Assembly (NCBI RefSeq): GCF_964204645.1
Contig: NC_134030.1
Span: 11,158,278 to 11,222,277, forward strand
DNA from: Tubulanus polymorphus
Taxonomy: Eukaryota; Nemertea; Palaeonemertea; Tubulaniformes; Tubulanidae
Length of the DNA stretch: 64,000 nt
Direction: 5' to 3'
The notes under the pieces are model-generated. The model saw only the letters and a list, made by a program, of their open reading frames with translations, searched no databases and was not told the DNA's origin. Shown in pieces: positions 3,040-45,852 of this stretch (positions are counted from its first letter, which is position 1; each line of letters begins with the position of its first letter). A program made the translations under genes and the position numbers.

Positions 3040-3045
3040 GATATT
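3040..3045. repeat. Target-site duplication, left copy (GATATT)
   Basis: GATATT directly abuts the left end of the Polinton and is repeated exactly at 17517-17522. Six base pairs is the size known for Polinton/Maverick integrases. Confidence 0.95.
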
Positions 3046-3449
3046 AGTAGTATAGTCAGAGGGGGGTTCTGGCACAGCTAACTTTTGGGCTAACTGTGCT
3101 AATGTGAGCTAACTTTGAGCTAATGTAAGCTAACTTTTGAGCTAATCTGAGCTAACTTTTGAGCTAATCTGAGCTAATGTCGGTTAACATCTGAGCAAAC
3201 TTTTGAGCTAATCTGAGCTAATGTTGGTTAACATCTGAGCTAATCTGAGCAAACTGTTGAGCTAATGTGAGCTAATATCGGTTAACATCTGAGCTAATTT
3301 GAGCTAATGTCGGTTAACATCTGAGCTAATCTGAGCTAACATTGAGCTAATGTGAGTGAATGAATGTTAATACCGAGCTAATGTGAACTAGTTATCGGGC
3401 TAATGTCTATGTGTTATATGGAGCTAATGTGGGTTAACTATTGAGTTAG
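3046..3449 (+). repeat. Polinton left terminal inverted repeat (404 bp)
   Basis: Matches the reverse complement of 17113-17516 from the first base until the sequences diverge after ...ATTGAGTTAG. I see one mismatch by eye (GCTAATGTGAG versus GCTAATCTGAG). The inside is built of short direct repeats of the type GAGCTAATCTGAGCTAA(C/T), alternating with GTTAACATCT. Similar degenerate units continue to about 3500, past the TIR boundary. Confidence 0.95.
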
Positions 3450-4570
3450 CTATTGAGCTAATGTGTGTTAATGTTGTGCTGATGAGGGTTAACAGCGGGT
3501 TGTTTATACTATTTCTGGTATATGAGTAAATTTCTGAAAGTGTTGTGAAAGGGGGTACAGTAAAATCTGATAGAACAAAGTATATGTTATAAGTATGGTA
3601 TGATGATGTAATTATTTCGAGTGTTAATTAAACAGGGGAGACAAAACTATAAGTATAGCAAGATATTTTTTATTGAATGTGTCTGAAATGAATTCAACAG
3701 ACAGGTGTGGATGTGATGGTGAATGTAGTTGAATAACAATAGGGGCTAACATGATAGTTGGGATATGCGAACTCAGATGACCTGTTAATGAGAATACAGA
3801 ACAATAACACTCCGGTGTAATTTCGAGAGTTCCCACCGACGGTAATGGCATTTTTTCTCTTTATAATCTTCATTATGAATACTGGGTTCAATGTGATTTA
3901 TTAGGTTTTGCTTCCGAGAATACTATCATAAATGAATTTATCGTCGGACATCTGTATTGAAACTCCCTGTTCTTTTCAAAAAGTAATGTGTTCAGAAGGT
4001 ATTATCTGTTTGTTTTATTCGTTTCTGTTGATGACTGTTTGACTGAATAGATAGTAATATAGATTTTCTACTCTGATGACCATCCCGGTGGTAAACCGTG
4101 AGAAAGTTTGAATATTCTCTTAACAGGGGGGTAAAACAGACATAGGTGGAGTGACAGTATTTAAAGAAACAATGAAGATCAATCACGTGATTTAAAGTAG
4201 ACCAATGGAATGATTCTGTGGTAACTTAAAAATTACGTTGATTGGTAAATTTTAACATCCTATTGTTGATCGAACATTTAAAAATGCCGACTACCGCAGC
4301 ACGGTCTTTTTCGTTCCAACGCGCCGAAGTATCCAACAACGCAGAACCACGCTATCATCATCATCATCATCATCATCGACATTATCGTCACCAAAGGAGA
4401 CTAAGGAAAGAAAACTCATTTACTAAGGTAAGCTACGTATTATTTTCCTTAATTCTACATAATTCTTTTGTTTAGATATTCTCAATGTGAAATATGTATA
4501 CTCGTTATCGAAATTTTTGCATTGTATCGAAAAATATTTTACAATTTTTATCAATTTTTTAAGATGAAAT
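3450..4570. other. Left internal region of the Polinton, downstream of the late-type gene block
   Basis: This 1.1-kb stretch separates the left TIR from the protease stop codon. It contains the end of the GAGCTAAT repeats and several overlapping minus-strand frames (3624-3891, 3992-4186) that look accidental. It also holds the short + strand candidate exon described separately at 4284-4427. It probably carries the 3' untranslated region of the minus-strand gene block. Confidence 0.5.
4284..4427 (+). CDS. Candidate short + strand first exon with a histidine run
   Basis: An ATG at 4284 opens a 48-codon frame rich in basic residues with a run of seven histidines. It ends at a strong splice-donor sequence (AAG|GTAAGC, phase 0). 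The next + strand gene in the element is the DNA polymerase at 11492, whose ATG directly follows a pyrimidine-rich tract ending in TTTAG, also phase 0. A long leader intron linking the two is possible, but many other acceptors lie between. The histidine codons come from a CAT repeat, so a chance ORF is the main alternative. Confidence 0.25.
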
Positions 4571-5038
4571 TTACATTCTAATGAAATACTTGCTAACAAA
4601 TTGTTTAACATAATAATCATTATACTCGTAATCAGTTTTACTAAAACTACTGAATATCTCGGGAAAACACATACCGTGTGAGAGAAGAGTTACAAAATAT
4701 ATGCAATAATATCCGCAATTCGTACTAAACAAACTTTGTACTCTAACTCGAGAATAATCCCAGTAATGACAGTGTGTATCTAAATAGTTTCTTAATATAA
4801 TATTATAGAATTGCGGTTGTTGTCCGTAACTATCTAGGAAATAACCTTGTTTATTTGCAAATATTATAAAACAAATCCAATGTTCTCCGCTCTTATCACT
4901 ATTTTGAGAGTTTACAATGAAAATACTGGGATACTCAGGAGGTTCGGGTAAACGATCAGCTGCGTAGACACCTTTAAACAATTTGTTCGCACAAGTATCT
5001 TCGCGCAAAATATTAATTAATTGATCGGTATACAACAT
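4571..5038 (-). CDS. PRO: Adenain-like maturation cysteine protease
   Basis: A 155-residue protein of the adenovirus-protease/Ulp1 fold (C5/C48-type), which in adenoviruses and Polintons cleaves precursor capsid proteins. The catalytic residues are visible in the expected order: His53 (GEHW), Asp69 (YFLDSYG), Gln101 as oxyanion residue and Cys108 (STNCGYYC). The frame is open upstream to 5191, but that part overlaps the capsid gene in another frame. The ATG at 5038, four bases beyond the capsid stop codon, gives a start just before a normal adenain N-terminus and is the better choice. The likely substrates are the neighbouring pX/pVI-like and capsid proteins. The assignment is firm; activity is inferred from the intact active site. 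Confidence 0.9.
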   Translation of the reverse strand: MLYTDQLINILREDTCANKLFKGVYAADRLPEPPEYPSIFIVNSQNSDKSGEHWICFIIFANKQGYFLDSYGQQPQFYNIILRNYLDTHCHYWDYSRVRVQSLFSTNCGYYCIYFVTLLSHGMCFPEIFSSFSKTDYEYNDYYVKQFVSKYFIRM

Positions 5039-5042
5039 CTTT

Positions 5043-6362
5043 TTAAAAATCTGTGACAACAGTGCGGTCTTTTGTAATTTCCAACACTTCATCAAAGTTG
5101 GCGTATAATAGTAAATTAATATTTTCTGGTAGAGGTTTTGAAAATTCCAATTCAACGCGAAGGGAACCCTTTTTACTGATAGCCAGGTCACTGAATCCGA
5201 AATCAGGTGTCAGATCGAATGCGGTTAGGAAATATCCGTTAGCATAATCTTTTCTGGTTATTCCAATTGTCTTATCTTGATATAAAATACCGGTGCCAGT
5301 GAACAATGAGAAATATCCTTCACTCAAGTCTTTCGACTCGAAATTTATTGCCGACGCTTCAACTTGCGACCCATTGATGGACACCGCAATTCTAGTGATA
5401 TCATAGTGTTTAAAGTCGAACGGGTTTTTATCGTAACTTCCACTCAGCGATTCGTCCGAGCAGAATCCGATAATTATATTCCTCGGTAAATTTCCAATTA
5501 TCAGATTATCTCTTATAACACTGCGTACTCCACGTGGTATATTCACCGGAAAAATGCTTGTTTTTACAAAATGGTATTTGGCATTACTAGTAGCCAATGC
5601 TTTCTCATGCGCTAACTGAACTGACGGGCTTAGTTGTACTCGTCGCACATTTAATGTAGCGTTTTCAATTTTCACTTTGAACTTTACGTCTGGATTCGGG
5701 GACATTAAACAAAATGCATCCTTACTTCTGATTAACTTAACTTTAACCGTTACATTCGAGAGAAGTAGTTTATCTAGTCCGAACGCATCGCTGTGTAATC
5801 GAAGTTGCGCTTTTACGAGATTGTTCGGCTTTTTCAGTAAATCATAACGTTCTTTGAGACCCGAGTTACAATTCGCGCTTCTAGGATCTGTATCGTTCAT
5901 ACGCCCGGCTTCGTCTTTATATATCATAGCACTTTCCATCCATCCCGGTTTCGTAGATGATTGACAAAATATCAAGTTCTCAATAGCGGCTCTAATCGGG
6001 TGTAAGTCCATTCCATTACTAATTAATTTGTCGTTGAATCGTACCTCGACGTCACTGAATAGTGACTGAGCGTAATTAATAAGGGTAGCTACGGGATCAT
6101 CTGCTTTGTCATTGTTCATCGGACTGCCATCGCCCTTTACAATTTTAAACGTTGCATCTAACCACGTGTGGTTTAAATCTAGATAATGTTGTGAGTTACC
6201 GGTTATAAGAAAATCGATATTTCCGCTATCCGTAATTGTAGCTAACGGTTGATATTTAGCATAATGTGCGGACTCCATAGTGATATTAGTCATCGGCAGT
6301 GAAAAGATGTCCAATTCACTCTTGAGTGCAGGGTGCGAGTCTTTGTGTACTTTCAAACCCAT
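5043..6362 (-). CDS. MCP: Polinton major capsid protein, double jelly-roll type
   Basis: A 439-residue protein with the sequence style of the Polinton major capsid family (the family also found as F54H12.2-like proteins in nematode annotations). The N-terminus (residues about 10-60) has the 'DIFSLPMTN..ME' and 'FLITGNSQHYLDLN' segments characteristic of this family. Later come beta-rich segments such as 'LRLHSDAFGLDKLLLSNV' and, near the C-terminus, 'GSLRVELEFSKPLPENINLLLYANFD'. In relatives the fold is a double jelly-roll forming the hexons of an icosahedral shell. It lies directly upstream of the protease with a four-base gap and downstream of the pX-like gene by 63 bases. The ORF is intact. 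The fold is known for the family and not shown here. Confidence 0.88.
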   Translation of the reverse strand: MGLKVHKDSHPALKSELDIFSLPMTNITMESAHYAKYQPLATITDSGNIDFLITGNSQHYLDLNHTWLDATFKIVKGDGSPMNNDKADDPVATLINYAQSLFSDVEVRFNDKLISNGMDLHPIRAAIENLIFCQSSTKPGWMESAMIYKDEAGRMNDTDPRSANCNSGLKERYDLLKKPNNLVKAQLRLHSDAFGLDKLLLSNVTVKVKLIRSKDAFCLMSPNPDVKFKVKIENATLNVRRVQLSPSVQLAHEKALATSNAKYHFVKTSIFPVNIPRGVRSVIRDNLIIGNLPRNIIIGFCSDESLSGSYDKNPFDFKHYDITRIAVSINGSQVEASAINFESKDLSEGYFSLFTGTGILYQDKTIGITRKDYANGYFLTAFDLTPDFGFSDLAISKKGSLRVELEFSKPLPENINLLLYANFDEVLEITKDRTVVTDF

Positions 6363-6425
6363 GTTATATCAGTGTTGATGTTGGCGATAACAATGAAGAT
6401 GTTAACAATGATAACGATCAGTTAA

Positions 6426-6818
6426 TTAATATGCTTCCAGGCTTTCGATTGTTCCACGTTGACGTTTCACCCGACGTCTATTCGACTTCGATTTTACTTT
6501 ACGTTTTCTCTGATTATTCGGGGCTTTTAATACATTTCGAACGGCTGTTTTACCGTTATTCAATAACGATTCTCCTAGATCTCTTCCACCAATGACGTCA
6601 CCTATTGTGTTGACACCGGCTTTAACTATATGTGGTGCTGCTTTCTTTGCAATTGTCTTAAACAAAGGGATCGCTCCCCTGAATAATCCTCCCAGAATAG
6701 ATCCGATTCCTGCTCCTTTTTGTATCGGTCTACCGTGATAGAAATCATTCCCGCCACCCGCCTGCCGTAAATAATAATTACAGCAAGCGTCTTGATCTAT
6801 GATACATTCGGTTTTCAT
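6426..6818 (-). CDS. Glycine-rich pVI/pX-like small virion protein
   Basis: A 130-residue basic protein. After a short cysteine-containing N-terminus it has an AGGGND segment (about residues 20-25), then a glycine-rich amphipathic stretch 'IGSILGGLFRGAIPLFK', and a lysine/arginine-rich tail (KRKVKSKSNRRRVKRQR). This arrangement is shared with the adenovirus minor proteins pVI/pX and with the small Polinton protein between penton and capsid genes. GG-X sites are the type cut by adenain, so processing by the adjacent protease is a reasonable inference. The start codon overlaps the stop of the penton-like gene by four bases, suggesting coupled expression. Exact correspondence to pVI or pX is uncertain. 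Confidence 0.72.
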   Translation of the reverse strand: MKTECIIDQDACCNYYLRQAGGGNDFYHGRPIQKGAGIGSILGGLFRGAIPLFKTIAKKAAPHIVKAGVNTIGDVIGGRDLGESLLNNGKTAVRNVLKAPNNQRKRKVKSKSNRRRVKRQRGTIESLEAY

Positions 6819-7627
6819 AGTAACAACTTTCGTCTAAAATGTAACACGAGGGATACTTTGCCCCTTTTAAAGATGGGCGGAGTACCACTGTCCTTAAACA
6901 TATAGATTTCAATAACGTCCAGTCGATTACTCCTGAGCGGAAGATAATAAGGTCGTCTAAATTCACGATCTATAACTGTTTGATTTATATCGTTTACACC
7001 TACAATCCTTAACAAAGGTGCGCTATCGTGTCCAACTTGTTGATGTTGAATTAACTCTGAATAGATTAAGATGTTATGATTATCGGCCATAAGGTCGACC
7101 GGTCTAGACGCTATGACCTCGACGTAGCCGAAGTTATCGGATGAACTTGCTTTTCCTATGATTTTAGTTTCGGTAATATCATCACTAAAAATGTCGGCGT
7201 CGACTACATGCATCGAAGGGAAGCCCAACACCCAGGCTAATTCCTTCCTGAACTTAATTTTCGCGTTAGCGGATAATCTAATCGAAACTCGTTGGCTTAT
7301 CTCATTATACATTAGTTGTATTTTATTCGCTGCCGGTGATCGCGTTATAACCGAGTTCACATGTTCTATCAATGTTTCGATATTTCTATACACACCGCCT
7401 GGCACGCTATACGCGTCACTCCATTGTCCATCACCAGAGTCCACATAAAATTCTCCAGTAATTACGTTGTCGAATTCGCAATTGAAATTTATGTGAACTA
7501 ACGCGACTTCCCAATTACCTTCTAGGTTAATCGTCCCTCTCAATTTAACTTTAAACTTTTCTTGAGAGTTTCCTGGAAATTCATCCACGCTTCCATCGCT
7601 CAATAATGTTAGATAAAAGTCATGCAT
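6815..7627 (-). CDS. Penton-like minor capsid protein
   Basis: A 270-residue protein whose N-terminus ('FYLTLLSDGSVDEFPGN', then 'FKVKLRGTINLEGNWEVAL') matches the pattern of Polinton minor capsid proteins. These are predicted single jelly-roll penton proteins occupying the five-fold vertices. The middle and C-terminal parts are beta-rich with few charged clusters. The gene overlaps the integrase gene upstream by eight bases and the pX-like gene downstream by four. It belongs to a capsid-gene block in the order penton, pX, MCP, protease. No damage is visible. The jelly-roll fold is inferred from the family. Confidence 0.8.
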   Translation of the reverse strand: MHDFYLTLLSDGSVDEFPGNSQEKFKVKLRGTINLEGNWEVALVHINFNCEFDNVITGEFYVDSGDGQWSDAYSVPGGVYRNIETLIEHVNSVITRSPAANKIQLMYNEISQRVSIRLSANAKIKFRKELAWVLGFPSMHVVDADIFSDDITETKIIGKASSSDNFGYVEVIASRPVDLMADNHNILIYSELIQHQQVGHDSAPLLRIVGVNDINQTVIDREFRRPYYLPLRSNRLDVIEIYMFKDSGTPPIFKRGKVSLVLHFRRKLLL

Positions 7628-8714
7628 TCTTCTTCTTTAGTTCTCGTGCCGGAATCCACGAATTGAATTTCGTCGGGTATCCCAACCACTTCACGAGCAA
7701 CTCGCGGTTTCTTCCTCGACCGCGTCTTCTTATAATCTTCTCCACTCGGTAAACATCGTCGTTTTTAATTACTTTTTGTAATTCGTGACGATAGAATTGT
7801 CCCTGAACCTGCTCACCCATTTGATCTATAACGTTATATGTCGGTGGGTTGTGCGGGATCTGTTTTGAAACCGAGAATATTTCGTGCGACCATCCGGGTA
7901 AATAACCCTTGTCGAAATCTTTCTTATATCTTGCGATTCTGACGGTATCCCCAATAGAAAACTTGTACTGTTTGTTCATAAGAGACTCTTTTCCGTATAG
8001 GTTTTCCCACACCAACTTCTCATTATTTTCACTAACTTGAGACGGGTTCATTTTTATCGACCTATGATACGAATTGTTGTAGGCATTTATAATCTTAGGA
8101 AGAACATCTATATAGGTTTTCGTCTTGTACGCGGTCATATAGCGGAATAATCTTCCCTTTAACGTTCTGATGAATCGCTCGACAATACTACATTTCACTG
8201 TATCCTCGCTCGTAAAGTGATGAATGTTATACTTCTTTGTTATCTTACTAAAATATGCATTCAAAAATTCTTTGCCCTTATCACTTTGAACTTTTTTCAT
8301 ACGACTTTTAATCGCTATACCTTCGAATGCGCTACTAACTTCTCCACCATTTTTCGACTTTAGGGGTATGGCGTAAGCGAATTTAGAAAAAACGTCGATC
8401 GAAACCAGTAGATATTTAATTCCTTTATTATACTTAGATATATTCGATAAATCACACAAATCGATTTGATGCTGTTGATTGATACCGGATACTATTGTTC
8501 TATTCCTCTTGAAACGCACGCGAGTAGGACGATGAAGCGTATATGCCTCTTGCGATTTCAGAAAGTCTCTAATAACGTCTATACCAATTTCATTTCCGGA
8601 CAGCTTCGCGGCGCGATGTAATGCATTCAAACCACCGAATGCGCTTGGGTTTTCTGGGTTGTAGTACAGGTTGTTCAGTATCTTTTTCAAGTCCGAGGTC
8701 AGGCGAGTCGACAT
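7620..8714 (-). CDS. INT: Polinton integrase (RVE core plus chromodomain)
   Basis: A 364-residue retrovirus-type integrase that would insert the element and create the 6-bp duplications. The catalytic triad is visible: Asp85 (HQIDLCD), Asp145 (VQSDKGKEF) and Glu179 (SIVERFIRTLKGRL), with 33 residues between the second Asp and the Glu. The N-terminal 60 residues are helical and lack an obvious HHCC zinc site. The C-terminus carries a chromodomain-like segment ('YRVEKIIRRR', 'ELLVKWLGYP', 'NSWIPAREL') that may direct integration to modified chromatin. The gene is intact and packed against the penton gene. The assignment is very secure. Confidence 0.95.
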   Translation of the reverse strand: MSTRLTSDLKKILNNLYYNPENPSAFGGLNALHRAAKLSGNEIGIDVIRDFLKSQEAYTLHRPTRVRFKRNRTIVSGINQQHQIDLCDLSNISKYNKGIKYLLVSIDVFSKFAYAIPLKSKNGGEVSSAFEGIAIKSRMKKVQSDKGKEFLNAYFSKITKKYNIHHFTSEDTVKCSIVERFIRTLKGRLFRYMTAYKTKTYIDVLPKIINAYNNSYHRSIKMNPSQVSENNEKLVWENLYGKESLMNKQYKFSIGDTVRIARYKKDFDKGYLPGWSHEIFSVSKQIPHNPPTYNVIDQMGEQVQGQFYRHELQKVIKNDDVYRVEKIIRRRGRGRNRELLVKWLGYPTKFNSWIPARELKKKNA

Positions 8715-8824
8715 CGTCTTTCACTTTTGACTGTTGCACACAACACGAAATGTTGAATTTTTTACAATTAATGTTAATGAGCGATTGCGGTAAACAATCA
8801 GACTTCATCATTTCGTTATCCCGA

Positions 8825-9361
8825 TTATTCACACATATGCATATTGAACAACACATGCGGCAACACCGAAATCATCTGCTTTAAAGATTTACACCCGCTA
8901 ATAATCACACATCCCTTATGTTGTATTATAAATGTAACATTTCCACAGCGAGATATGAGGCTGGGGGTGATCTCCGGATCATATCGCCCACCTAATAACG
9001 TGTGTAGTTGGGATAAGTTAACTTTAATTCCCGTTCTCGCAACACCTGTCATTGTTTGAATTTTAAATTCTGTCAATCTAACGGCGGCAGTGGTATTAAT
9101 CTTTTGTATCAATCTAGCAAATCGTCGCACACTGGTATAACTCTCGCTGGATGACTTTGCTCCGTTACATACTATTCTCCCGCTTGCGAATAATAGACAC
9201 GTGCCCCTGATGCGCTTATTCCTAAGAATTAATGCGTTAAATTTACGAGGGTTGTACACTACGTTTGACATTGTCCTAGACAACTCCTCTAGATTGAGCT
9301 TACAATTAAGATTTGCAGTCGCTACTACATTAACAACGTCGATCATTTCTGATGTTACCAT
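8825..9361 (-). CDS. TATA-binding-protein (TBP) homologue carried by the Polinton
   Basis: A 178-residue protein consisting of little more than the TBP core. The first repeat is well conserved: 'NVVATANLNCKLNLEEL' (residues 11-27), 'YNPRKFNALILR' (36-47) and 'LLFASGRIVCNGAKS' (56-70). These include Phe41 and Phe58, which correspond to the DNA-kinking phenylalanines of the first repeat. The linker to repeat two, 'FKIQTMTG' (99-106), is also typical. The second repeat is recognisable ('YDPEITPSLI', 'SGCKS') but diverged, and its kinking phenylalanines appear to be replaced. Cellular TBP nucleates Pol II, I and III pre-initiation complexes. Here the gene sits between integrase and a packaging-type gene, inside an intact element, so it would act on the element's or the host's promoters. 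An exapted or captured host TBP is the simplest origin. Confidence 0.9.
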   Translation of the reverse strand: MVTSEMIDVVNVVATANLNCKLNLEELSRTMSNVVYNPRKFNALILRNKRIRGTCLLFASGRIVCNGAKSSSESYTSVRRFARLIQKINTTAAVRLTEFKIQTMTGVARTGIKVNLSQLHTLLGGRYDPEITPSLISRCGNVTFIIQHKGCVIISGCKSLKQMISVLPHVLFNMHMCE

Positions 9362-9627
9362 TACGAGAACTAGATACTAAATGAACTTGGATAAAATGAG
9401 ATAGAATCTAAATTTTCTCCATTCATTCTCTTTCAGATATAGATCACTCGACGACAACGACGACGACGACGTATATTAGAATTTCAAACTTACATTAGAT
9501 TCATCAAAACGTATCAAGACAATCGAATAAAAAAGGTAATCCGATGATAAATTAGCTTTATCATTATTATTATTATTACTATTATTATTATCATTATATT
9601 CTACAAATACACTAAACAAAAATATGT
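9362..9627. other. Intergenic gap with microsatellites
   Basis: Between the TBP-like gene and the next ORF lies a 266-base AT-rich spacer. It includes a short CGA repeat near 9450-9473 and an ATT/ATC microsatellite near 9556-9598. It should hold the TBP-like gene's promoter on its right flank as seen from the gene, but no clear TATA box stands out. Confidence 0.5.
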
Positions 9628-10365
9628 TCACATATAAATCCAATTTTCGAAATCTATATCTTTAGAATTTTTAGATGGCGTAGTCATCCTCCTCCTCTTC
9701 GTCATCTTTGCTTCGAATTCATTCTTAACGTTCGGGCGATTGTTAATTAATTTATTTCTAACGAATTTATTCGGGATAAACGTCTGTGGAACGGACATAT
9801 CTTGTAATGCCTTGATGAAATCGTCGAGTCCGTTCATTTGTTGAGACTTGTTAGGTGTCATGCAGAGATTGATTAAATCGACGATATTACTATCATCTCT
9901 TTTGACACCTTTTACTATTATCTCCCCCTTATCGGTCCATGACAATATTTCGGAATATCGCTTTATTCGCTCCAATAACATTTCCGATTTCTTTCTATAG
10001 TTTTTCGGTACGTTATTCAAAATTTCCTGGTCGAATTCACTTTTAGTTTCGGTAGTTCGTTTTAAATCACGATCGGTATTCAATGCACTGCTTTTACTTA
10101 CTATGTTAGAATTAGTGATCGTCGACTCCTTTGAATGTTTTTCGATTTGCATTAGTTTATTCAACGCGTCGTTATACATCTTCAATTTCACGTCGTCCTT
10201 CACATCATTATCCATTTGAAGGATATCGGACATTTGACTTTCTATATTTTTCACGCGATTCGTTTCACCACTCGAAGATTCTCGCTTGTCATCGGTTGAT
10301 GTGATTTTTTCAATCATGGGAATAAATGATCCCGGAACAACGTAAAGTTTTTCAACGTTCTTCAT
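9628..10365 (-). CDS. Polinton-conserved hypothetical protein (245 aa)
   Basis: A hydrophilic 245-residue protein. It begins with 'YVVPGSFIPMIEK', has a long charged and coiled-coil-like middle (residues about 40-125), then a more conserved-looking block 'VPKNYRKKSEMLLERIKRY' followed by 'WTDKGEIIVKGV'. The C-terminus is basic (KMTKRRRM). Proteins with this layout recur in Polintons from many animals and have no established function; a virion or assembly role has been proposed by position. Its ATG overlaps the stop codon of the preceding 108-residue gene by four bases (ATGA), so the two are probably expressed together. Confidence 0.65.
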   Translation of the reverse strand: MKNVEKLYVVPGSFIPMIEKITSTDDKRESSSGETNRVKNIESQMSDILQMDNDVKDDVKLKMYNDALNKLMQIEKHSKESTITNSNIVSKSSALNTDRDLKRTTETKSEFDQEILNNVPKNYRKKSEMLLERIKRYSEILSWTDKGEIIVKGVKRDDSNIVDLINLCMTPNKSQQMNGLDDFIKALQDMSVPQTFIPNKFVRNKLINNRPNVKNEFEAKMTKRRRMTTPSKNSKDIDFENWIYM

Positions 10366-10688
10366 TCCATAAACCCGAGTAGTCGACCGATTCCTTTCAG
10401 TATCAGTCCAAGGAAACCGCCTTTTTGCACGATTAATGATTTTTTCGATTTAATCGGTACTCGTCTATTAGCGAGAATTCGAATCCACTTCTTATGTCGC
10501 TTCAATTTCTTTTTATCCGATTCGCTGTGTTTGATATTCCCTCTTAATGAATTTATACAGACTTCGCAAATAACTTTCACTAATCTGTTCGACGATGATG
10601 ACAGAATCGCATCGCGCATATTTTTCTTTCCATCGCATAAAAGTCTTAAGTGAGGAGCGAATTCCTTCAAATGCAAGTGGTTCCTCAT
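10362..10688 (-). CDS. Small basic Polinton-conserved protein (108 aa)
   Basis: A short, strongly basic protein. It has a cysteine pair in 'VICEVCINSLRGNI', a Lys/Arg-rich helix 'KKKLKRHKKWIRILA', and a C-terminus 'VQKGGFLGLILKGIGRLLG' that is glycine- and leucine-rich. The family is widespread in Polintons, where a 'QKGGFL' motif followed by a hydrophobic tail is typical. The KGG site resembles an adenain cleavage site, and a DNA-condensing or membrane-active virion peptide would fit, but this is inference. It overlaps the 245-residue gene by ATGA and starts 33 bases downstream of the ATPase stop codon. Confidence 0.65.
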   Translation of the reverse strand: MRNHLHLKEFAPHLRLLCDGKKNMRDAILSSSSNRLVKVICEVCINSLRGNIKHSESDKKKLKRHKKWIRILANRRVPIKSKKSLIVQKGGFLGLILKGIGRLLGFME

Positions 10689-10721
10689 TTTATCAATTGA
10701 CGATGTTCGCGTGAAATTACA

Positions 10722-11369
10722 TTATTTAATACTTTTTATCTTATAATAAATATGATATCCCTCGCTGGGAAATATTCGTGTGCGTAATCTCCATTTGTCC
10801 GACGTTTGTGGTTTGAAATCACAAAATAGATATCCACGCGGTGAAATTGAGGTCGCATCTGTAAACGCCTCCTCGAGCGATTTACCTAACCCGGACTGCA
10901 TCGCTAAAGTCTTTACTTGGAGTCGATCCCTCGGATGCTTGAATAGAACTATATAATGCGTGTTTAACGATATTGTCCGAAAATGAGGTCCTCTCGGGAA
11001 AAGGGTTTGCGATATTAGAATCACTTGAAGTTTTCTATGATGACTACCACGTGTAAAAATGGTCTCCAATAATTTGGGGTCGCACTCGTTCAATACATCA
11101 TCCAAAATAAGTAGTTTTGTTGTCTCTGAACCTGACAAACTTTCGTACAATTCCTCTGTTAAACCCTTAATAAACTCAACTCCCTCTGTATCGTGATAGA
11201 TTTCCTGATCTTCGGCGTACACCCAAACTATACGATCGGGAAATGGATCGAACATTCTTTCTTCAATCAATCTTTTAGTAAAGACTGTCTTCCCGATACC
11301 AGTCATTCCATTGATAATCGACGTGAACCATCCTTGCAATTTAGTCGGCGGTAAATCAGCTATTTCCAT
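10722..11369 (-). CDS. ATP: FtsK/HerA-superfamily genome-packaging ATPase (A32-like)
   Basis: A 215-residue P-loop ATPase of the kind that pumps DNA into capsids in Polintons, virophages and large DNA viruses. Walker A is GMTGIGKT (residues 21-28) and Walker B is LLILDD (86-91), followed by a polar sensor segment 'VILISQTLFPRG'. The length is normal for Polinton ATPases. It is the first gene of the minus-strand block and is divergent from the polymerase gene across a 122-base gap. The start chosen (11369) places Walker A at the usual distance from the N-terminus. Intact. Confidence 0.93.
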   Translation of the reverse strand: MEIADLPPTKLQGWFTSIINGMTGIGKTVFTKRLIEERMFDPFPDRIVWVYAEDQEIYHDTEGVEFIKGLTEELYESLSGSETTKLLILDDVLNECDPKLLETIFTRGSHHRKLQVILISQTLFPRGPHFRTISLNTHYIVLFKHPRDRLQVKTLAMQSGLGKSLEEAFTDATSISPRGYLFCDFKPQTSDKWRLRTRIFPSEGYHIYYKIKSIK

Positions 11370-11491
11370 TGCCCCCTTTTACCACAGATTAACAGAATCA
11401 AAATTAACAGCGATCTATCCAAAACACGTTCATTTTAAAGATTATTATCCACACATTATATTTATTTCTGTCTTCCTTTCTTTTTCTTTAG
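11370..11491. promoter_or_regulatory. Divergent intergenic region between ATPase and polymerase genes
   Basis: This 122-base spacer must contain start signals for genes on both strands. On the + strand a TATA-like ATTATATTTATT lies at about 11455-11466. The polymerase ATG is directly preceded by a pyrimidine tract ending TTTCTTTAG, which is a good splice acceptor. This raises the possibility that the annotated ATG lies at the start of a second exon. Confidence 0.4.
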
Positions 11492-12030
11492 ATGGCACAG
11501 AAACAAGTATCAGAACGACTCAGCTTAGGACCAGTCGCCCTACCCAAGCGGTATGGGTGCACAATGTGCGAGCTGGTGTTCGCACACGCCAGCTCGAGAT
11601 CCCGGCACATTAACCGGGTGCACAAAAAGAGTAAACCGCTTTGTGCCAAATGCGGGGAGGGGTTTAGCACGACGGCCTACCGGGACAGGCACCAATCACG
11701 TTGTGCGAGACCCCTCCCAATCCCAGCGGCACGACGGCGACTGGTCCTTGAAGCACCGGCACCGCCAGCAGCAGCAGTAGGGGCGCCGCCAGCAGCAGCA
11801 GTGCCAGCAGCAGCAGTAGGGGCGCCGCCAGCAGCATCAGTGCCAGCAGCAGCAGTGCCAGCAGCAGTATTGCCAGCAGCAGCAGTAGGGGCGCCACCAG
11901 CAGCATCAGTGCCAGCAGCAGTATTGCCAGCAGCAGCAGTAGGGGCCCCACCAGCAGCAGCAGCAGTGCCAGCAGCAGTGCCAGCAGTAGTAGGGGCACC
12001 ACCAGCAGCAGCAGGGGCACCACCAGCAGC

Positions 12031-12068
<38 letters not shown>

Positions 12069-15000
12069 GGGCACCACTGGAATGGGAATGGGAAGAGTTA
12101 CCGGATCTTGATGAGGAAACTCTTGCCCTCATCGGGATCCGGCAAGGTGGCGCCTTAGAGGGGTATGTACGAAAATACGAGTTCCCATCCACTGAAAACA
12201 ACAAGTTTGATTTAATTAAATTTTATAACGATATCAAACCGCATCTCATCCGACTGCTTAAAGATGATTTAAGTAGATTGGGTGGGATAAAATGGTTTAC
12301 CAGCATTCATATAATTTTAGAAAAAGATATCGATGGTGTCCATCAACAAAGGACTGTGTATTTTACTAGCCACACTCGAAGTGCTTTCAATGGTGAACAA
12401 TTTGACGAGCTCTTGGATCAGGCTAAGAATAAAATGATCCAATTATTGGAACAATACAATACTGAGGGTACTGGTTGGAGGTTTGATTATGTCGAAGTGT
12501 TCGATCTACACGTCGGCATATATGAACCATTAGGTGGAGGTTCGTATATACCCTCTCCTCGTGTAATCGTTTCACGAGGAGGGGTTATAAATATCCAAAA
12601 TTTCGACAATATGTGCTTTCTTTGGTCTATACTCGCCCACCTCCACCGAATGGACACGAACCCCCAACGAGTATCTAAGTATTTACGGTACAGAGACGAA
12701 TTGAATATGAACAATATCAATTATCCAGTAACCGTAGAACAAATACCCATTTTCGAACAGCAAAACGATATATCAGTTAACGTATTTGCCTATGAGGATG
12801 GAAATATTTTTGTTCGTCGTTTGAGTGATAATCCACGCGCAAATCATGTTAATTTATTATTACTAGTTGATAACGATAACGCCCATTATTGTTTGATAAA
12901 TGACCTTAGTAAATTCCTTTTCCATCTAAACAAAAAGAAAGCCAAATGTTTTTGGTGTTTTAAGTGCATGCACTCTTTTTTATCGCAAGAAAATCTTGAT
13001 GTTCATACTCGGTACTGTATTCAAGGAATACAAAAGACAATCATGCCACCGACAGATGAGAATGTCTTGAAATTTGTTAATGTCACAAAACAGCACAAAC
13101 TGCCATATGTGATATATGCTGACTTCGAAATGTTTTTAGAACCGATTGAGGGGTGTAAATTGAACCAGAATCAATCTTGGACATATCGTTATCAGGTTCA
13201 TGAACCGTGTGGATTTTGTTTTAAAGTCGTTGGCCCTGACACCAGACATTCCCATCCGACAGTCCTTTATAGAGGAGACGATGTTATGAAGAAATTCTTA
13301 ACATCCCTCCTCGAAAAAGCAGAGGAAATATTACAGGAATACAAAAATCCTCAACCTTTGGTTATGAACGACGTCGATGAAACACACTTCAAATCAACTG
13401 ATATTTGTCATATATGTAAGGAAACCATAAATGGTAAGAAATGTCGGGATCACGATCATATAACCGGCAAATACAGAGGCCCAGCTTGTAATTCATGTAA
13501 TCTGAGTTATAGGGTTCCTAATTTCATACCTGTGATATTTCATAACTTGAAAAGTTATGACAGTCATGAAATTATTAGATCATTGGGCTTGGTTGAATTT
13601 AGGGGGTATAGAATTTCAGTGATCCCGACGAACACTGAAAAGTTTATCGGATTTACACTTGGTCCCCTACGCTTCATCGACTCGTTGGCATTTCTCAATA
13701 CCTCTCTCAGTACTCTTACGGAAAATTTGGTCAATTCGGGTAGAGAGAAATTCATTCATTTAAACTCGGAGTTCCCCGCCAATAAACTTGATCTTTTATT
13801 ACGTAAAGGTGTTTACCCATACGACTACATGACAGGTTCGGAGAAATTTAATGAGACAAGTCTCCCTCCTAAGGAGGCATTTACCAACACCCTGACGAAC
13901 ACTGAAATTTCGGTAGATGACTACAAACATGCACAGAATATTTGGTCGCAGTTTAACATGGCAAACATGGGCGAGTATCACGATCTCTATCTTAGAACCG
14001 ACGTATTGCTACTTTCAGATATTTTCGAGGAATTCCGCAAGTTCGCTCATAAGAGCTACGGATTAGATCCTTGTCATTACTACACTCTACCCGGCTACTC
14101 ATGGGATGCCTGCTTGAAACTGACAAAAGTCGAACTTCAATTGTTCACTGAAGTCGATATGTATTTGTTCATAGAACAGGGGATACGCGGCGGAATATCT
14201 GTTATTACCCATCGATATTTCGAGGCTAATAACAAGTATTTCGCCGATTACGACGAGGCCAAGGAGTCATCTTATATCATGTATTTAGATGCTAATAATC
14301 TGTATGGGTGGGCAATGTCTCAGGCATTGCCTGTTGGTGAATTTAGGTGGTTAGAAACAGAAAACGATCCCCTTTGGCCCGACGCTCAGGATATTTTAAC
14401 GATGACGGACGACGCCCATTTCGGCATGATACTCGAAGTGGACCTTGAATACGGTGCCGAGTTACACGATCTACATAACGATTTACCGTTAGCTCCGGAG
14501 CGCATGTTAGTCAACGAAGATTTAATGTTATCTCCGTATCAAAAGCTTCTATTTCAGACTTTGAAACTATCGTCCAGCAAGATACACAAGCTTATCCCTA
14601 ATCTTTACAATAAAACTCGGTATATTGTTCATTATAGGAATTTGAGGCTTTACATGAAACTTGGTATGAAATTAACAAAGATTCATCGTGTTCTCCATTT
14701 TCGACAATCAGCCTGGATGTCACCGTACATTGCTTTGAATACCGAATTCCGAAAAAATGCGAAATCCAATTTTGAGAAAGATATGTACAAATTACTGAAT
14801 AATGCAAGTTTTGGCAAGACAATGGAGAACATTAGGAATCGAATCAACTACCAAATTATTAACGAACCGGGGAAATTGAGAAAAGCTCTAGCGAAGCCAT
14901 CTACGATTTCATGGAACATTATTTCGGAGAATGTTGTGGGGGTAAAAAAACAGCAGATTTCGATCAAGTTGGATAAGCCTGTGTATCTTGGCTTTTCAAT

Positions 15001-15595
15001 TTTAGACATAAGCAAAACGTTAATGTATGATTTTCATTATAACACCATCAAGGCAGGATACGGGGATAACGCTAAACTTCTTTTTACAGATACGGATAGT
15101 TTAACGTACGCTATTCGCAGCAACGATTTGTACACGGATATGGCGGGGATTTCCGACCAGTTCGACTTTTCAGCCTATCCCACCGGCCATCCTTTATTCT
15201 CGGACAAAAATAAGAAAGTACTAGGCAAATTTAAGGATGAGACCAATTCTTTTCCCGTTAAAGTGTTCTGCGGTTTACGGAGTAAGATGTATTCAATGAC
15301 ATATCTTTCTCCGGATAACAACGGAACACTTGTGGAAAAGAAAACTGCAAAAGGTGTTGCGAAGTACGTCGTTAAGCAGTCCGTATCCCATAATAACTAC
15401 GTTGATTGCTTGCGTAATCAATCACGTATGATGGCTAACATGCGGTCTATCCGGAGCTTCAATCATAAGTTACATTCAGTTAATTTAAATAAAGTCGGAT
15501 TATCACCATACGACGACAAACGTTATATACTAGATGATGGTGTAAGCACATATGCTTATGGTCATCATAAAATTCCGGAGATAAATCATCATTAA
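11492..15595 (+). CDS. POLB: Protein-primed family B DNA polymerase with N-terminal zinc fingers
   Basis: A 1367-residue replicative polymerase of the DNA_pol_B_2 (protein-primed) class. Two C2H2-type zinc fingers occupy residues about 24-71, followed by a long Ala/Pro linker (about 88-195) encoded by GCAGCA/CCAGCA repeats. A cysteine- and histidine-containing region around 370 and 462 ('NMCFLWSILAHLH', 'AHYCLIND') resembles the papain/OTU-like domain seen in some relatives. The Exo I motif is YADFEMF (about 539-545). A cysteine/histidine block with 'RDHDHITGKYRGPACNSCN' (about 650-670) resembles endonuclease VII (HNH-type). Polymerase motifs A (YLDANNLYGW, about 930), B (KLLNNASFGKTMEN, about 1099) and C (FTDTDS, about 1198) are intact. 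It is the only major + strand gene of the element. Confidence 0.95.
11752..12080 (+). repeat. GCAGCA/CCAGCA repeat in the polymerase gene
   Basis: A GC-rich repetitive stretch coding for alternating Ala-, Pro- and Gly-rich units (AGGGGCGCC-CCAGCAGCAGCA type). It ends in an uninterrupted GCA/GCG run around 12027-12062. It keeps the reading frame and contrasts with the AT-rich surroundings. It also opens long but meaningless frames on the other strand. Confidence 0.85.
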
Positions 15596-16045
15596 AAGAA
15601 CAAGTCGTTATACTTAATATATATTTGCATATCTTTATTTATTCATAGTTATAAACATTGATTTATTTACACTCACTTATACATGCGTTTATGTTTTCAG
15701 TTTTACTTTAAACTATTTAACTAATATATATATTTATTTATTTATCTTATCTATTTATTTAAGATTATATGAAAGTTGGTAAACCATTGGTTTAATATCG
15801 TTATAAGTGTTTTCTATATTTCTTTTTATTTCAGGGATGGGATCTAACTCGTACCCCCTCTAAGCGCACCTTTTCCCGTTTTTTTTTTTTTCTTCCTTTT
15901 CTACTTTTTTATGCCAATTTCCCTATAATTCTTTTTTAAAATAAATAAAGAAAAAACCAGCATTTGATTATTAACATAATTCATGACTTTAGTTTTTGAT
16001 ATTTATCTATATATGGATTGAGGATACAGGAGATACATATATTCA
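15596..16045. other. Convergent 3' region of POLB and the PC4-like gene
   Basis: A 450-base AT-rich stretch between two converging genes. An AATAAATAAAG at about 15940 is a plausible polyadenylation signal for the polymerase transcript. A long T run lies near 15880-15890. No further ORF is supported. Confidence 0.55.
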
Positions 16046-16860
16046 TTAATCATCGATTTGGAATACAGGATGAGGATTACAGTAAACACACTGGAGAGCA
16101 CCCATCTGATTCTGATGATCATCATTGAACATACACGCTTTCATCCCAACGAGTTCAGGTTCCAAATCAACGAAAGAAATATTCATCAGTTTCTCCCACT
16201 GTTTTTCAGATAGTTCTATCCCGGTTTTCGTATGAACTCGTTGTTCCGTTGCAGCTATATAACAAAAATATCTAATGTCGATTATAACCTTATTGAAACG
16301 TTTGAACACGGTCACGTATCGGTTCCTACCGACGTGTAATCGAAAATCCTCTATGATATTATTGTTATTGTTGCTTTCATTAAACGAATTGATGGCGGAA
16401 TTTATGGAATCTCTATGCCAGTCGAGATTAGCCCATTCTTGCAGGTGTAGGCTAATGCCGCGTTTCGTTGGAAATAATCGAAGGTCATCACTGAGTTCAT
16501 AAGTTCGTATGTCAACACGTTTAACATCCTGCCACTCGCTGACACACGCAAACACTAAATTGCCCAGATAATGACGTTTCACATCCGCTTTCGCATAGAC
16601 GTATTCTTCTTTAGACTCACTCAGTTTTATATCCGTTTGTACACAAGCATTCTCTTTAACAACCGTATCTATGACAAAAGAAAAGATAATATGGTTACAT
16701 TACAAGTGAAACAATAAATAACTCAAAGGAGGAGAGGATGTTTTACAAACAAACAAATTAATTACACATACATACCAGGCTTAGCAGCGTTAATATCTAG
16801 CTTTAAATTCTTGAAATTCAGTCTTCGAGGCCTCTTTTTTGGAGCATCAGGTTCAGACAT
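16046..16860 (-). CDS. PC4-like (coactivator p15) protein with two PC4-type domains, spliced
   Basis: Two exons on the minus strand. Exon 1 is 16860-16776 and has a basic, nuclear-signal-like N-terminus (APKKRPRR). The intron 16775-16669 (107 bases) starts GTATGT and ends after a pyrimidine tract at AG. Exon 2 is 16668-16046. The frame is kept across the junction, giving 235 residues. The second domain (residues about 137-190) closely follows PC4: 'LHVGRNRYVTVFKRFNKVIIDIRYF', then 'TGIELSEKQWEKL'. An earlier segment (about 60-110) repeats the pattern in weaker form ('YLGNLVFACVSEW', 'VDIRTYEL', 'PTKRGISLHLQEWANL'). PC4 proteins bind single-stranded DNA and assist Pol II initiation and replication. 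Position near the right TIR, with its own promoter, suggests an early regulator or ssDNA-binding protein. Confidence 0.85.
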
Positions 16861-16936
16861 GTTTCGTTTCAACACGGGAGTTGTGTGCGTATCCATGATC
16901 AACTCAACGAATGAAATCACCTTTGGAGAACACACG

Positions 16937-16958
16937 TTATATACCCCTCATGACGTCA
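16937..16958 (-). promoter_or_regulatory. CRE plus TATA-box promoter of the PC4-like gene
   Basis: On the minus strand, a perfect palindromic CRE (TGACGTCA, 16951-16958) is followed seven bases later by GGGGTATATAA (TATA core 16937-16943). The ATG is at 16860, leaving room for a start site about 30 bases downstream of the TATA and a leader of roughly 50 bases. This is the clearest promoter in the element. Confidence 0.7.
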
Positions 16959-17112
16959 GATATTTTTCAGAACGAGGATCGTAATCATCGAAACAATTGA
17001 TAATTTGCATATGTTTATATTCATCCAGATCTAACCATATTCAAATGATCTCGTTTATAAATTTCACACACACCAGCTCAATAGATTACCATAAAAACCG
17101 GTAACTAAATAC

Positions 17113-17516
17113 CTAACTCAATAGTTAACCCACATTAGCTCCATATAACACATAGACATTAGCCCGATAACTAGTTCACATTAGCTCGGTATTAACATTC
17201 ATTCACTCACATTAGCTCAATGTTAGCTCAGATTAGCTCAGATGTTAACCGACATTAGCTCAAATTAGCTCAGATGTTAACCGATATTAGCTCAGATTAG
17301 CTCAACAGTTTGCTCAGATTAGCTCAGATGTTAACCAACATTAGCTCAGATTAGCTCAAAAGTTTGCTCAGATGTTAACCGACATTAGCTCAGATTAGCT
17401 CAAAAGTTAGCTCAGATTAGCTCAAAAGTTAGCTTACATTAGCTCAAAGTTAGCTCACATTAGCACAGTTAGCCCAAAAGTTAGCTGTGCCAGAACCCCC
17501 CTCTGACTATACTACT
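17113..17516 (-). repeat. Polinton right terminal inverted repeat (404 bp)
   Basis: Reverse complement of 3046-3449 with about one visible mismatch, ending ...ACTATACTACT at 17516. The repeated GAGCTAAT units are preserved in the same order in both ends, as expected when one TIR is copied from the other during protein-primed replication. Confidence 0.95.
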
Positions 17517-17522
17517 GATATT
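17517..17522. repeat. Target-site duplication, right copy (GATATT)
   Basis: Exact repeat of 3040-3045, immediately outside the right TIR. Confidence 0.95.
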
Positions 17523-24315: not shown

Positions 24316-25101
24316 CTATTTGAGAGAAGATATTCCAACCTGAATAACATGCATGAAACAAAACTGCAGAAGATTCTTATCTATAAAGTCACCAGTGTGA
24401 TAGCCGTCATCTTGTAGCCTTTTAAATAGATCCAACCAAAAGTTAACGCTTTCTTTCCTTAGAATACCCCACCAAATCTCCATTCTCTGGTTTGCTGTGC
24501 TTTTGCCCCTCAGATAACTGTGATGTCCAGCATATCGATCGATGTGATCGTTTCTGAGAAATATTTGCATTTGCTGGATAAAAGGATTCTCCGTTCCATC
24601 ATCTGCCCTTAATCTAGATGGGCAACCATCTTTGGACTCTACTGCCTCTAAGAAATACCCACATATGACACGGGGATCGTTGTTCGTTGTCCAAACTTCC
24701 AACCAGATAATTAATCTTGAGAATCCATCAATGCATCCACTTACACAAAAACCAAATGGTTTTGGCTTATCATATCCGTCGACATTCCAAATTGCGTTAG
24801 GCCCAGGATTTTCATACAAACGCCGCCGGAGTCGTTTTGTTATTCTTTGCTTCACTCCTTCTGGGTCTAATATGCCGAGCAGCAGTCGCACCACATTCTG
24901 GGGAATTCTCAGGCCATGCTGTGTACACTTAAAGTGCATCCATCGATATCCATGTAAATGACCTGATTTCTCCAACTGATGTATGATATACAGAGCTACG
25001 GTGATGATATCGGAGTAATCCTTTCTGCGGAACAAACCCAACTGAGCTCCTATCCGTCGCACAGTACGGTTACTAATTTTGATGTCAAAATCCTTACACA
25101 A
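24316..25101 (-). pseudogene. DDE integrase-core transposase, probably decayed
   Basis: An open 261-codon minus-strand frame with a rve-type core. Recognisable pieces are 'WNVDGYDKPKPFGFCVSGCIDGFSR' shortened here to its two Asp-bearing parts (NVDGYDK and CIDGFSR), 'RLRADDGTEN', and 'STANQRMEIWWGILR' with the expected Glu. The family is common in marine invertebrates and is related to IS3-like eukaryotic (IS3EU) transposases; I am not certain of the exact class. Upstream, the homologous N-terminal part continues ('HEIFRKLF', 'GFSNAEI') but is broken by a frameshift and a TAA at about 25109. No terminal repeats were identified. Confidence 0.65.
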
Positions 25102-43436: not shown

Positions 43437-44801
43437 CTACATTTTTGATTACGACTCTGAGCAACGCGATTTACTAATCAACGGTTTTCAACACGGTTTC
43501 CGCATCGACAGTTTTTTCGGGGGACCAATCGCAAGCCGCGGTATCACAAATTTAAAGTCGGCTAGGGATCATCCCGATGTGGTTCGGGAAAAGATTACGA
43601 AAGAACTTAATTTAGGGAGAGTTAGGGGTCTCTTCAGTGACCCATTTATGCCAGATGGTGCTCCGATTCATGTTTCGCCCCTCGGCGTCGTGCCTAAAAG
43701 CTCGGGGGGTTTAGGGTTATCCATCACCTGTCCTACCCAAAGGGTTCTTCGGTTAACGACTTTGTCCCCGTGGATGCATCCACCATTAAAAATTCAACTA
43801 TTCAAGATCAATCGATATAATCAAATCTCTGGGTCCGGACGTTTACCTTGCAAAAACAGATATCGAATCCGCGTTTCGCATTATCCCCATAAGCGAGTTT
43901 GACACCATTGTTGGGCTTTACCTTGGACGGCAAGTTTTATGTTGATGCTGTTTTGTCGATGGGGGCCTCTAGTTCGTGCGCTATTTTCGATCGTTTCTCG
44001 TCTCTTTTAAAGTGGGTAGCTCTTCATAAGTTAGGGTGCTCTTTCGCTGTACATATTCTTGACGATTTTCTGCTCATTGCAAAAGGCGAGCTCAAGTGCA
44101 AGCATGATCTAAACAACTTTCTACGACTATGTCACGAGATAGGTGTGCCCATTAAGCTAGATAAGACGTTCCCACCCGTTCGCCAGTTAACGTTCGCCGG
44201 AATCATGATCGATGCCGTTTTGCGGGAGGCGCGTTTACCTGAAGATAAATTACTCAAATGCCGCACCTTAGTGGATCAATTTTTAGATAAGTGTAAGGTA
44301 ACTTTACGCCAATTACAATCGTTGATTGGCACTCTGAACTTTGCATGTGCCGTTATAGTGCCTGGCCGTCCCTTTCTCCGGAGACTGATTGATCTGACGG
44401 TCGGCGTGCCTCATAAGTCATTTCACATTACGCTCACGGCCGAGTCCAAAAAAGATCTCCACGTCTGTCGTGTTTTTCTCGCAGGCTTCAACGGCAAGTC
44501 GTTTTTCATAGACGACAGGAGATTGACTAACGAACGGTTGAACCTTTATACCGACTCGGGGCTATATTTGGGCCCCATTGGTTCAGTGGCGCCTGGCCGA
44601 CCAGACGGCCAAAAATTACTCCATTGCAGTTCTAGAGCTGTACCAAATTGTAGCGGCTCTGGCCGTTTGGGGTGAGCAATGGCAGAATAAGACCATATGT
44701 TTTCATTCTGACAATCAAGCGGTTGTTCATGTCATCAATCGTCAGTCTTCACGGGACAGAGCCATGATGACCCTTGTCCGGAAAATGGTATCGTAATTTG
44801 T
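43437..44801 (+). pseudogene. Reverse transcriptase and RNase H of the YR retroelement, frameshifted
   Basis: Fragments in three frames. The first has 'LINGFQHGFRIDSFFGGP' and 'SPLGVVPKSSGG'. After a shift near 43706 the fingers/palm region continues in another frame, with a stop. From 43899 come 'TLDGKFYVDAVLSMGASSSCA' (two segments) and the catalytic 'HILDDFLLIA', then thumb. RNase H follows: 'LNLYTDSG', and in another frame 'AVLELYQIVAAL' and 'CFHSDNQAVVHVIN'. At least three frameshifts make it non-functional. Confidence 0.8.
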
Positions 44802-44908
44802 TTAAAACGTAACATTGTTTTCCTCAGTGAGCATATACCAGGCCATCTTAATATTCTACCGGACTTCCTCTCTCGTTTTCAGTACCGCAGATTCCACTGG
44901 GCGGCACC

Positions 44909-45852
44909 GTGGGTCGACTCGGTCCCAACGGAGGTCCCTCGTCCTTGGCTCCCGGCAGGTATAGGCCCACTATAGACAAACTGCTGGCTGCTGCGCTTAG
45001 TCCAGCTACGACCAGAGCATACGATCGCGCGTGGGGTAGGCTTGCCACTTTCGGTGCTCATTCGGGTACCGACATATCTATACCAGTGGCCGCGACCACA
45101 ATTAACTTATTCATCGCTCACTTGCACGAAACTATCAGCGTCCGCCATATCCTCATCCTTTTCGGCTATTTCTTATTTTCATAAAATACGAGGGGCCCCG
45201 ATCCCTGCAGATCATTTGTAACACAGAAACTAGTAGCGGGCGTGAGGAATTTGTCTCACAACCGCGACGTCCGATTGCCCATTACTCCCGTCATTATGTC
45301 TCGCTTGCTCGGTCATCTTTCTTCGTCGGAGGAGGCCTTGTCCAGTAGCCGCTTAGTGCAGTCAGTTATGATCGTGGCATTTTGTGGATATTTTCGCATC
45401 GGCGAGTTATTACCCAGGGCTCTTGCCTCAGCGGGGGACGTGATACAGCTTCGAGATGTCACCGTCACGCCTTCTGGTCTTCAGATTATCGTACGCAAAT
45501 TCAAACATAGCTCTCGCGTTGGCCCGCAGGTCATTCAGGCCGAATATTTGTCGCTACCCGTAGACATGGATTTGGCTCTCATTATCTCGGATTATTTACG
45601 TTACAGAGGGCCCTTCCCTGGTCCGCTCTTTATAGATTGTTCCGGTAAGCCGTGGCTGCGCCGTGCGTTCGAGAGGCGTCTCGCAGTCTTGCTACATGGC
45701 TGCAAGCTTTCCACTTCCCTTTACAAGGGCCACTCTTTTCGCATCGGAGCGGCTACCAGCGCAGCAGCCAGGGGGTCCCCGATGCGCAGATAAGGGCAGC
45801 TGGCCGCTGGGGGTCGGAAGCTTACCGCAAGTTTATAAGGCTGTCTAGGTAG
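44909..45852 (+). pseudogene. Tyrosine recombinase of the YR retroelement, frameshifted
   Basis: The N-terminal SAM-like part 'ALSPATTRAYDRAWGRLATFG' is followed by a broken joint (45182-45241), then the catalytic part. That has Arg in 'FCGYFRIGELL', 'GHSFRIGAAT' (H-x-x-R), and after a last frameshift near 45790 'AGRWGSEAYRKFIR' with the catalytic Tyr. All key residues survive, but in separate frames. The enzyme would have circularised or integrated cDNA. Confidence 0.8.

Follow-up and report, generated by a model that had tools for sequence, protein, structure and literature searches.

A TATA-binding protein homologue with a changed second repeat as a recurring gene of one Polinton clade

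The element and its TBP gene

The window analysed here, a stretch of 64,000 nucleotides from Tubulanus polymorphus, carries an element of ~14 kb that spans 3046-17516 between inverted repeats matching at 412/420 bases. The features of the element, by window position and strand, are as follows:

3040..3045: left target-site duplication, GATATT
3046..3460: left terminal inverted repeat, begins AGTAGT
4571..5191, minus: adenovirus-type C5 cysteine protease, open frame (weak PF00770 match, E=0.0015, below cut-off)
5043..6362, minus: putative major capsid protein, so assigned mainly by position (no profile match)
6426..6818, minus: conserved 130-aa Polinton protein, p130 (tblastn to relatives)
6815..7627, minus: putative minor capsid/penton protein (conserved in relatives)
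7620..8714, minus: retrovirus-type integrase with C-terminal chromodomain (PF00665, E=2.9e-9; PF00385, E=1e-8, above cut-off)
8825..9361, minus: TATA-binding protein (TBP) gene, 178-residue product (profile match, predicted fold; possible true start 9346)
9628..10365, minus: conserved 245-aa protein, p245 (adjoins TBP in relatives)
10362..10688, minus: 108-aa ORF between p245 and ATPase (coding seems conserved, by eye)
10722..11369, minus: packaging-type ATPase (AAA/Pox_A32 matches below cut-off; Pox_A32 E=0.0033)
11492..15595, plus: putative protein-primed DNA polymerase B with endonuclease VII domain, 1367 aa (PF02945, E=2.8e-6, above cut-off)
16046..16582, minus: tandem PC4 coactivator protein (PF02229, two stretches, E=9.2e-18)
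17102..17516: right terminal inverted repeat, ends ACTACT
17517..17522: right target-site duplication, GATATT

Searches of Pfam and PHROGs gave no profile match for the capsid ORF and PDB sequence matches were at chance level only; its single-sequence model was too poor to use (pLDDT 29.6). We take the 1367-aa ORF to encode a putative polymerase B from its PolB-like motifs; no polymerase match to it was found in Pfam, PHROGs or PDB sequence searches, which returned endonuclease VII, zinc fingers and weak chance matches instead. There was no TFIIB match among the scanned window ORFs. The 178-aa PC4 ORF scored 63.9 bits against a PF02229 cut-off of 25, and reached only E=8e-4 in PDB by phmmer. 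The 108-aa ORF (10362-10688) has a glycine/hydrophobic and basic stretch, and by eye its coding is seemingly kept upstream of p245 at three further TBP loci (L040, L042 and L045). Both inverted repeats (3046-3460 and 17102-17516) are composed of many short TGAGCTAAT-like units. Elsewhere in the window, a minus-strand ORF at 24316-25101 with an rva_4 integrase core (PF24764, E=1e-25) belongs to another mobile element. A reverse-transcriptase ORF lies at 43899-45793 on the plus strand (PF00078, E=2.6e-5, below cut-off) and is followed by a frame that looks, without Pfam support, like a tyrosine recombinase; this region is perhaps a DIRS-like element.

Long inverted repeats, a 6-bp target-site duplication and AGT-type ends are features of Polinton/Maverick elements and, with the RVE integrase and its chromodomain, they bear out the Polinton setting of the original prediction, which was made from the sequence of this DNA. 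In PMC8097293, AGT twice/ACT twice is given as the commonest end motif of vertebrate Mavericks, and those elements resemble the present one in such ends and in their inverted repeats and integrase gene; their ATPase and capsid genes have putative counterparts here.

The ORF at 8825..9361 had been proposed to encode a TBP homologue, and this was confirmed by a Pfam scan of the window ORFs, in which PF00352 matched both TBP repeats in two stretches at 115 bits against a curated cut-off of 22.9. The predicted model of the protein likewise has the two-repeat saddle fold, as a TBP should, and the top-ranked cellular TBP in structure comparison is 31% identical to it.

Recurrence of the gene and its neighbours

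A PF00352 search of the same genome gave 41 matches, host exons among them. The host's own multi-exon TBP lies at L056, and L057 holds a TLF-type gene (TLF/TRF2, TBPL1). Eighteen further TBP-locus regions were compared by tblastn with the window proteins, making 19 loci when the window is added. The order integrase-TBP-p245 was present in 16 of the 18 further regions, or 17/19 with the window, so that the gene does occur in other Polinton copies, a point on which the original prediction had staked itself. At L054, TBP, p245 and ATPase are present and the integrase is not in the fetched piece; at L053 the TBP is degraded and p245 is missing. Identity to the window TBP is 100, 69, 46, 46, 43 and 36% for representative proteins, and the gene keeps its place among elements that share only about 40% identity in their capsid proteins. 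Full-length TBP frames were found at 11/19 loci (window included), with seven interrupted and one, L048, with an altered C-terminus. The TBP protein is identical in three copies; over about 6.1 kb, identity to the window is 99.9% for L038 and 100% for L039, and therefore the element has moved recently. TBP is a standing part of one Polinton clade.

Outside the 19-locus count are three weak loci on C9, L034-L036, and one at E=3.57. The three (G000:C9 near 4.48, 4.71 and 4.81 Mb) are diverged matches to the TBP second repeat, one of them beside a partial Polinton integrase, and perhaps represent an older TBP-bearing lineage.

Searching the genome with PF02229 produced 90 matches at E<=0.01, grouped into 51 loci that probably include the host's own PC4 gene. 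PC4 was found within 10 kb at 16/19 TBP loci; random placement (2000 draws) gave 0.14 such loci on average and never more than 3. Of the three remaining TBP loci, L044 and the degraded L053 have no PC4 near them and L048 has one at a distance of 26 kb. At L042 and L043 the nearest PC4 lies towards the capsid genes and is encoded on the other strand from TBP. Since 35 of the 51 PC4 loci are not near a TBP gene, TBP and PC4 are not strictly tied. Many PC4 loci apart from TBP (e.g. C4:15999909 and C7:11153031) have open frames of 200-225 aa; these TBP-distant loci are perhaps non-autonomous derivatives or another element family.

Related elements were sought through their integrases. From 1782 candidates, 112 were scored, and 14 of these lay within 5 kb of a TBP locus; the rest comprised L060, L059 and 96 others at 38-40% identity (L061 among them), which are perhaps a second numerous family. 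L060 retains integrase, penton, capsid, p130 and p245 genes, 33-42% identical, with no space for TBP between integrase and p245. Because integrase trees join L060 to the TBP-bearing L049 (100/99; 100/97 with L049 and the database integrases P0128-P0130), L060 reads as a TBP loss. The penton tree sets L060 between two TBP-bearing groups, a placement that would be compatible with loss and is less decisive than the integrase trees. No PC4 match was found near L060 in the PF02229 genome search, as if TBP and PC4 had been lost together. That a TBP-less L060 exists means that TBP is dispensable in some contexts. No TBP was found in the pieces of L059 and L061 examined. L059 (G000:C5:11374000-11379500) has a related integrase with an ATPase and a deoxynucleoside kinase-like ORF (by eye), and L061 (G000:C6:9552500-9557000) has a 38-39% related RVE integrase adjoining an ATPase-like ORF (by eye), with no PC4 match near.

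DNA-contact residues, selection and phylogeny

Fourteen Polinton-type TBPs were mapped on the host TBP, with contact residues given in human-type numbering (Asn163, Val165, R231, R235, Q238). Repeat 1 retains both kinking Phe in 14/14 proteins, Asn163 in the 13/13 with a letter at that position and Val165 in 13/14. In repeat 2, Asn is replaced by Thr in 14/14 and Val by Thr or Ser in 14/14 (Thr in the window). The second kinking Phe of this repeat is His, Gln or Leu in 12/14; the first remains Phe in 11 proteins and has become Thr in the window and L040 and Leu in L045. The host TBP and nine other TBPs compared retain the four Phe together with both Asn/Val pairs; the window TBP does not have this complete set, its repeat 1 being complete and its repeat 2 changed. 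Identity of the 14 proteins to the host TBP is 34-46% in repeat 1 versus 21-35% in repeat 2, in agreement with the asymmetry first noticed in the window sequence. The accompanying claim that both kinking Phe of repeat 2 are lost held for the window and L040 but not for the other 12 of the 14 proteins; on this alignment, what the clade shares in repeat 2 is T in place of N and T/S in place of V, not a double Phe loss. Relative to cellular TBP (PF00352; host TBP at L056), the Polinton gene has a single exon and lacks the long N-terminal extension, and its repeat 2 has usually lost one or two kinking Phe in addition to these N and V changes.

Repeat-1 helix residues R231, R235 and Q238 (human numbering) are kept in 14/14 proteins. 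The TFIIB-contacting stirrup Glu is also unchanged in 14/14, and for this reason the surface that meets DNA seems to have changed more than the one that meets partner proteins. The window protein is a TBP homologue by profile and fold, without the canonical TATA-binding surface. TATA-like words showed no enrichment in 22 upstream regions, where TATAWAWR occurred 0 times (1.2 expected), TATAWA 3 (3.4), TATTTA 3 (1.9) and TTAWTTAW 1 (1.0). This result fits a changed target, and equally fits the absence of a promoter role.

Pairwise dN/dS by the NG86 method was 0.125 for L042/L043 (dS 0.545, dN 0.068), 0.130 for L042/L044, and 0.074 for window/L040 at a saturated dS of 2.37. Other finite values in diverged pairs were 0.079-0.222, all with dS above 2 (saturated); the remaining diverged pairs were fully saturated, and near-identical pairs offered no synonymous change to use. 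These ratios indicate purifying selection, by which the TBP gene has been kept across diverged copies. When window/L040 was divided by repeat, repeat 1 gave a dN/dS of 0.075 and repeat 2 one of 0.070 (both saturated). Judging from this one pair with its saturated dS, repeat 2 has diverged from cellular TBP yet seems to be as constrained as repeat 1.

A TBP profile search of a 5.8-billion-protein database gave 1491 proteins at E<=0.001. The best 120 of these were listed and 12 were checked by sequence, from which eight were picked (P0008-P0013, P0015 and P0112). In a 47-row tree the eight formed one clade with six TBPs from the present genome (100/95), within which P0008-P0011 grouped with the L049 TBP (100/99). 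In a 42-row tree without several long-branch rows, 12 of those 14 again formed one clade (100/99). Some group labels in the trees were guessed (P0005 as VIR; P0001, P0002, P0003, P0028 and P0032 as archaeal; P0017 and P0018 as fungal). By these trees, the TBP clade appears to span several sources. The P0008 contig is 8156 bases and the longest for P0010 is 9114; integrases P0130 and P0129, two of the three best integrase matches, are on contigs of exactly those sizes. No equal-size integrase contig was found among the 120 integrases listed for the other six TBPs (P0009, P0011, P0012, P0013, P0015 and P0112), and integrase P0128 (7122 bases) pairs with no contig of the eight TBPs.

With the host TBP as candidate donor, the join was rejected in the 47-row tree (p-AU 0.0125) and was not rejected in the 42-row tree (0.165). 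A join of Polinton TBPs with TLF was disfavoured (p-AU 0.035), though the branches are long. No close relatives of the window TBP were found in IMG/VR; profile scans there found one 7.2-kb contig (L058) and ten loci (L062-L071) with TBP. No Polinton genes were seen in the gene content of L058 and L062; at L063-L071 the TBP frames only were examined, and the frame printed for L067 was not the TBP. Our guess is that the TBPs of L058 and L062-L071 come from archaeal viruses or archaea. A capsid-protein scan alongside these searches gave no match.

Known TBP-bearing systems and a possible role in transcription

To our knowledge, TBP is held to be a universal general factor supplied by the host, with large DNA viruses as the known exceptions. 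Giant-virus TBPs (e.g. that of Heterosigma akashiwo virus 01) and the mirusvirus TBP resemble the present case in that TBP is carried by eukaryotic DNA viruses. TBP is given for 59% of mirusvirus genomes (PMC10132985), sporadically for algal endogenous elements of putative mirusvirus origin (PMC10675990) and for giant viruses (PMC11464507). The haptophyte virus CpV-BQ1 has a TBP and two TFIIBs, read in PMC12085832 as able to redirect host RNA polymerase; whereas that is a virus of a haptophyte alga with TFIIB, the case here is a 14-kb integrated element with TBP and PC4 and no TFIIB match in the scanned ORFs. The 50 viral matches listed from BFVD are 8-19% identical to the window protein (best TM by query 0.77), versus 31% for the top-ranked cellular TBP; none of the 50 is named as a Polinton, many rows being unnamed.

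In text searches, TATA, TBP, transcription and PC4 did not appear in the vertebrate Maverick paper PMC8097293, nor TBP in PMC8097293, PMC4642659, PMC10120064, PMC11071308 or PMC12220804. The literature searched, mostly non-subscription and judged mainly by title and abstract opening, yielded no recognisable account of a Polinton TBP or PC4; within that literature, the earlier impression that TBP had not been described as a standard Polinton gene stands. TBP-bearing viruses are thus known, and what is new, as far as this literature goes, is TBP as a conserved Polinton gene with PC4 beside it.

Our favoured reading, held with about even confidence, is that an ancestor of one Polinton clade acquired TBP in a single capture, that the gene has been passed down with the element from then on, and that it most likely serves with PC4 as an element-specific promoter factor. 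Repeat 1 would contact DNA like cellular TBP, the remodelled DNA surface of repeat 2 would alter which sequence gets bent, and the conserved stirrup and convex side may still dock host TFIIA/TFIIB. TBP and the tandem-PC4 coactivator could then recruit host Pol II to promoters of the element itself, perhaps those of late capsid genes.

The same retained outer surface could instead make the protein a decoy or competitor that binds host TFIIA/TFIIB (or NC2/Mot1), bends DNA poorly, and lowers host transcription or shields the element. Such a role would suit the loss of repeat-2 DNA contacts beside a stirrup Glu and repeat-1 helix kept in every protein, but a pure decoy need not keep the repeat-1 DNA contacts and both kinking Phe of that repeat, which are nearly invariant, nor would one expect repeat 2 to be as constrained as repeat 1 in the one pair divided (saturated dS). 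Endogenous elements would also gain little by poisoning their host, and we consider this explanation unlikely. A part in replication or packaging, with TBP bending or marking the ends of the element while PC4 coats single-stranded DNA during protein-primed replication, would have to account for a TBP gene placed among capsid-side genes beside integrase and p245 rather than at the ends, with no link found here between TBP and the inverted repeats. In its favour, single-stranded DNA is a ligand of PC4 domains, a single-strand binder is required for protein-primed replication, and 35 PC4 loci have no TBP nearby; the element PC4 may act as a single-strand binding protein instead. As an account of TBP, we regard this reading as improbable.

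We are similarly doubtful that the protein is a TBP-like factor for TATA-less or Pol III/other promoters that has come to resemble metazoan TLF/TRF2 by convergent loss of kinking Phe. TLF/TRF2 (TBPL1; host L057) is a TBP paralogue with altered kinking Phe, the host TLF exons deviating at these positions by eye, and the lack of TATA enrichment upstream would agree with such a role. However, TLF has a changed repeat 1 where the Polinton proteins keep theirs, and it does not group with them in the tree, the join being disfavoured though branches are long. That the gene is a functionless passenger, a host gene copied by chance, seems very improbable to us: interrupted frames at 7/19 loci, the altered L048 C-terminus and the absence of the gene from L060 are what a passenger might show, but dN/dS is low, proteins from several sources form one clade, and the gene position persists where capsid proteins have diverged to about 40% identity.

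Returning to the promoter-factor reading, the data suggest that some of the machinery for starting transcription is supplied by the element itself. Tentatively, we propose that an animal Polinton clade may have a private initiation system, in which a TBP whose second half reads different DNA acts with a tandem-PC4 coactivator, and the general factor that recognises element promoters would be encoded by the element and not by the host. If true, small integrated DNA elements can establish their own promoter recognition. The half-remodelled TBP would offer a natural experiment on the role of each half of the saddle, and the finding would have a bearing on what moves Polintons from silence to virus-like expression and back.
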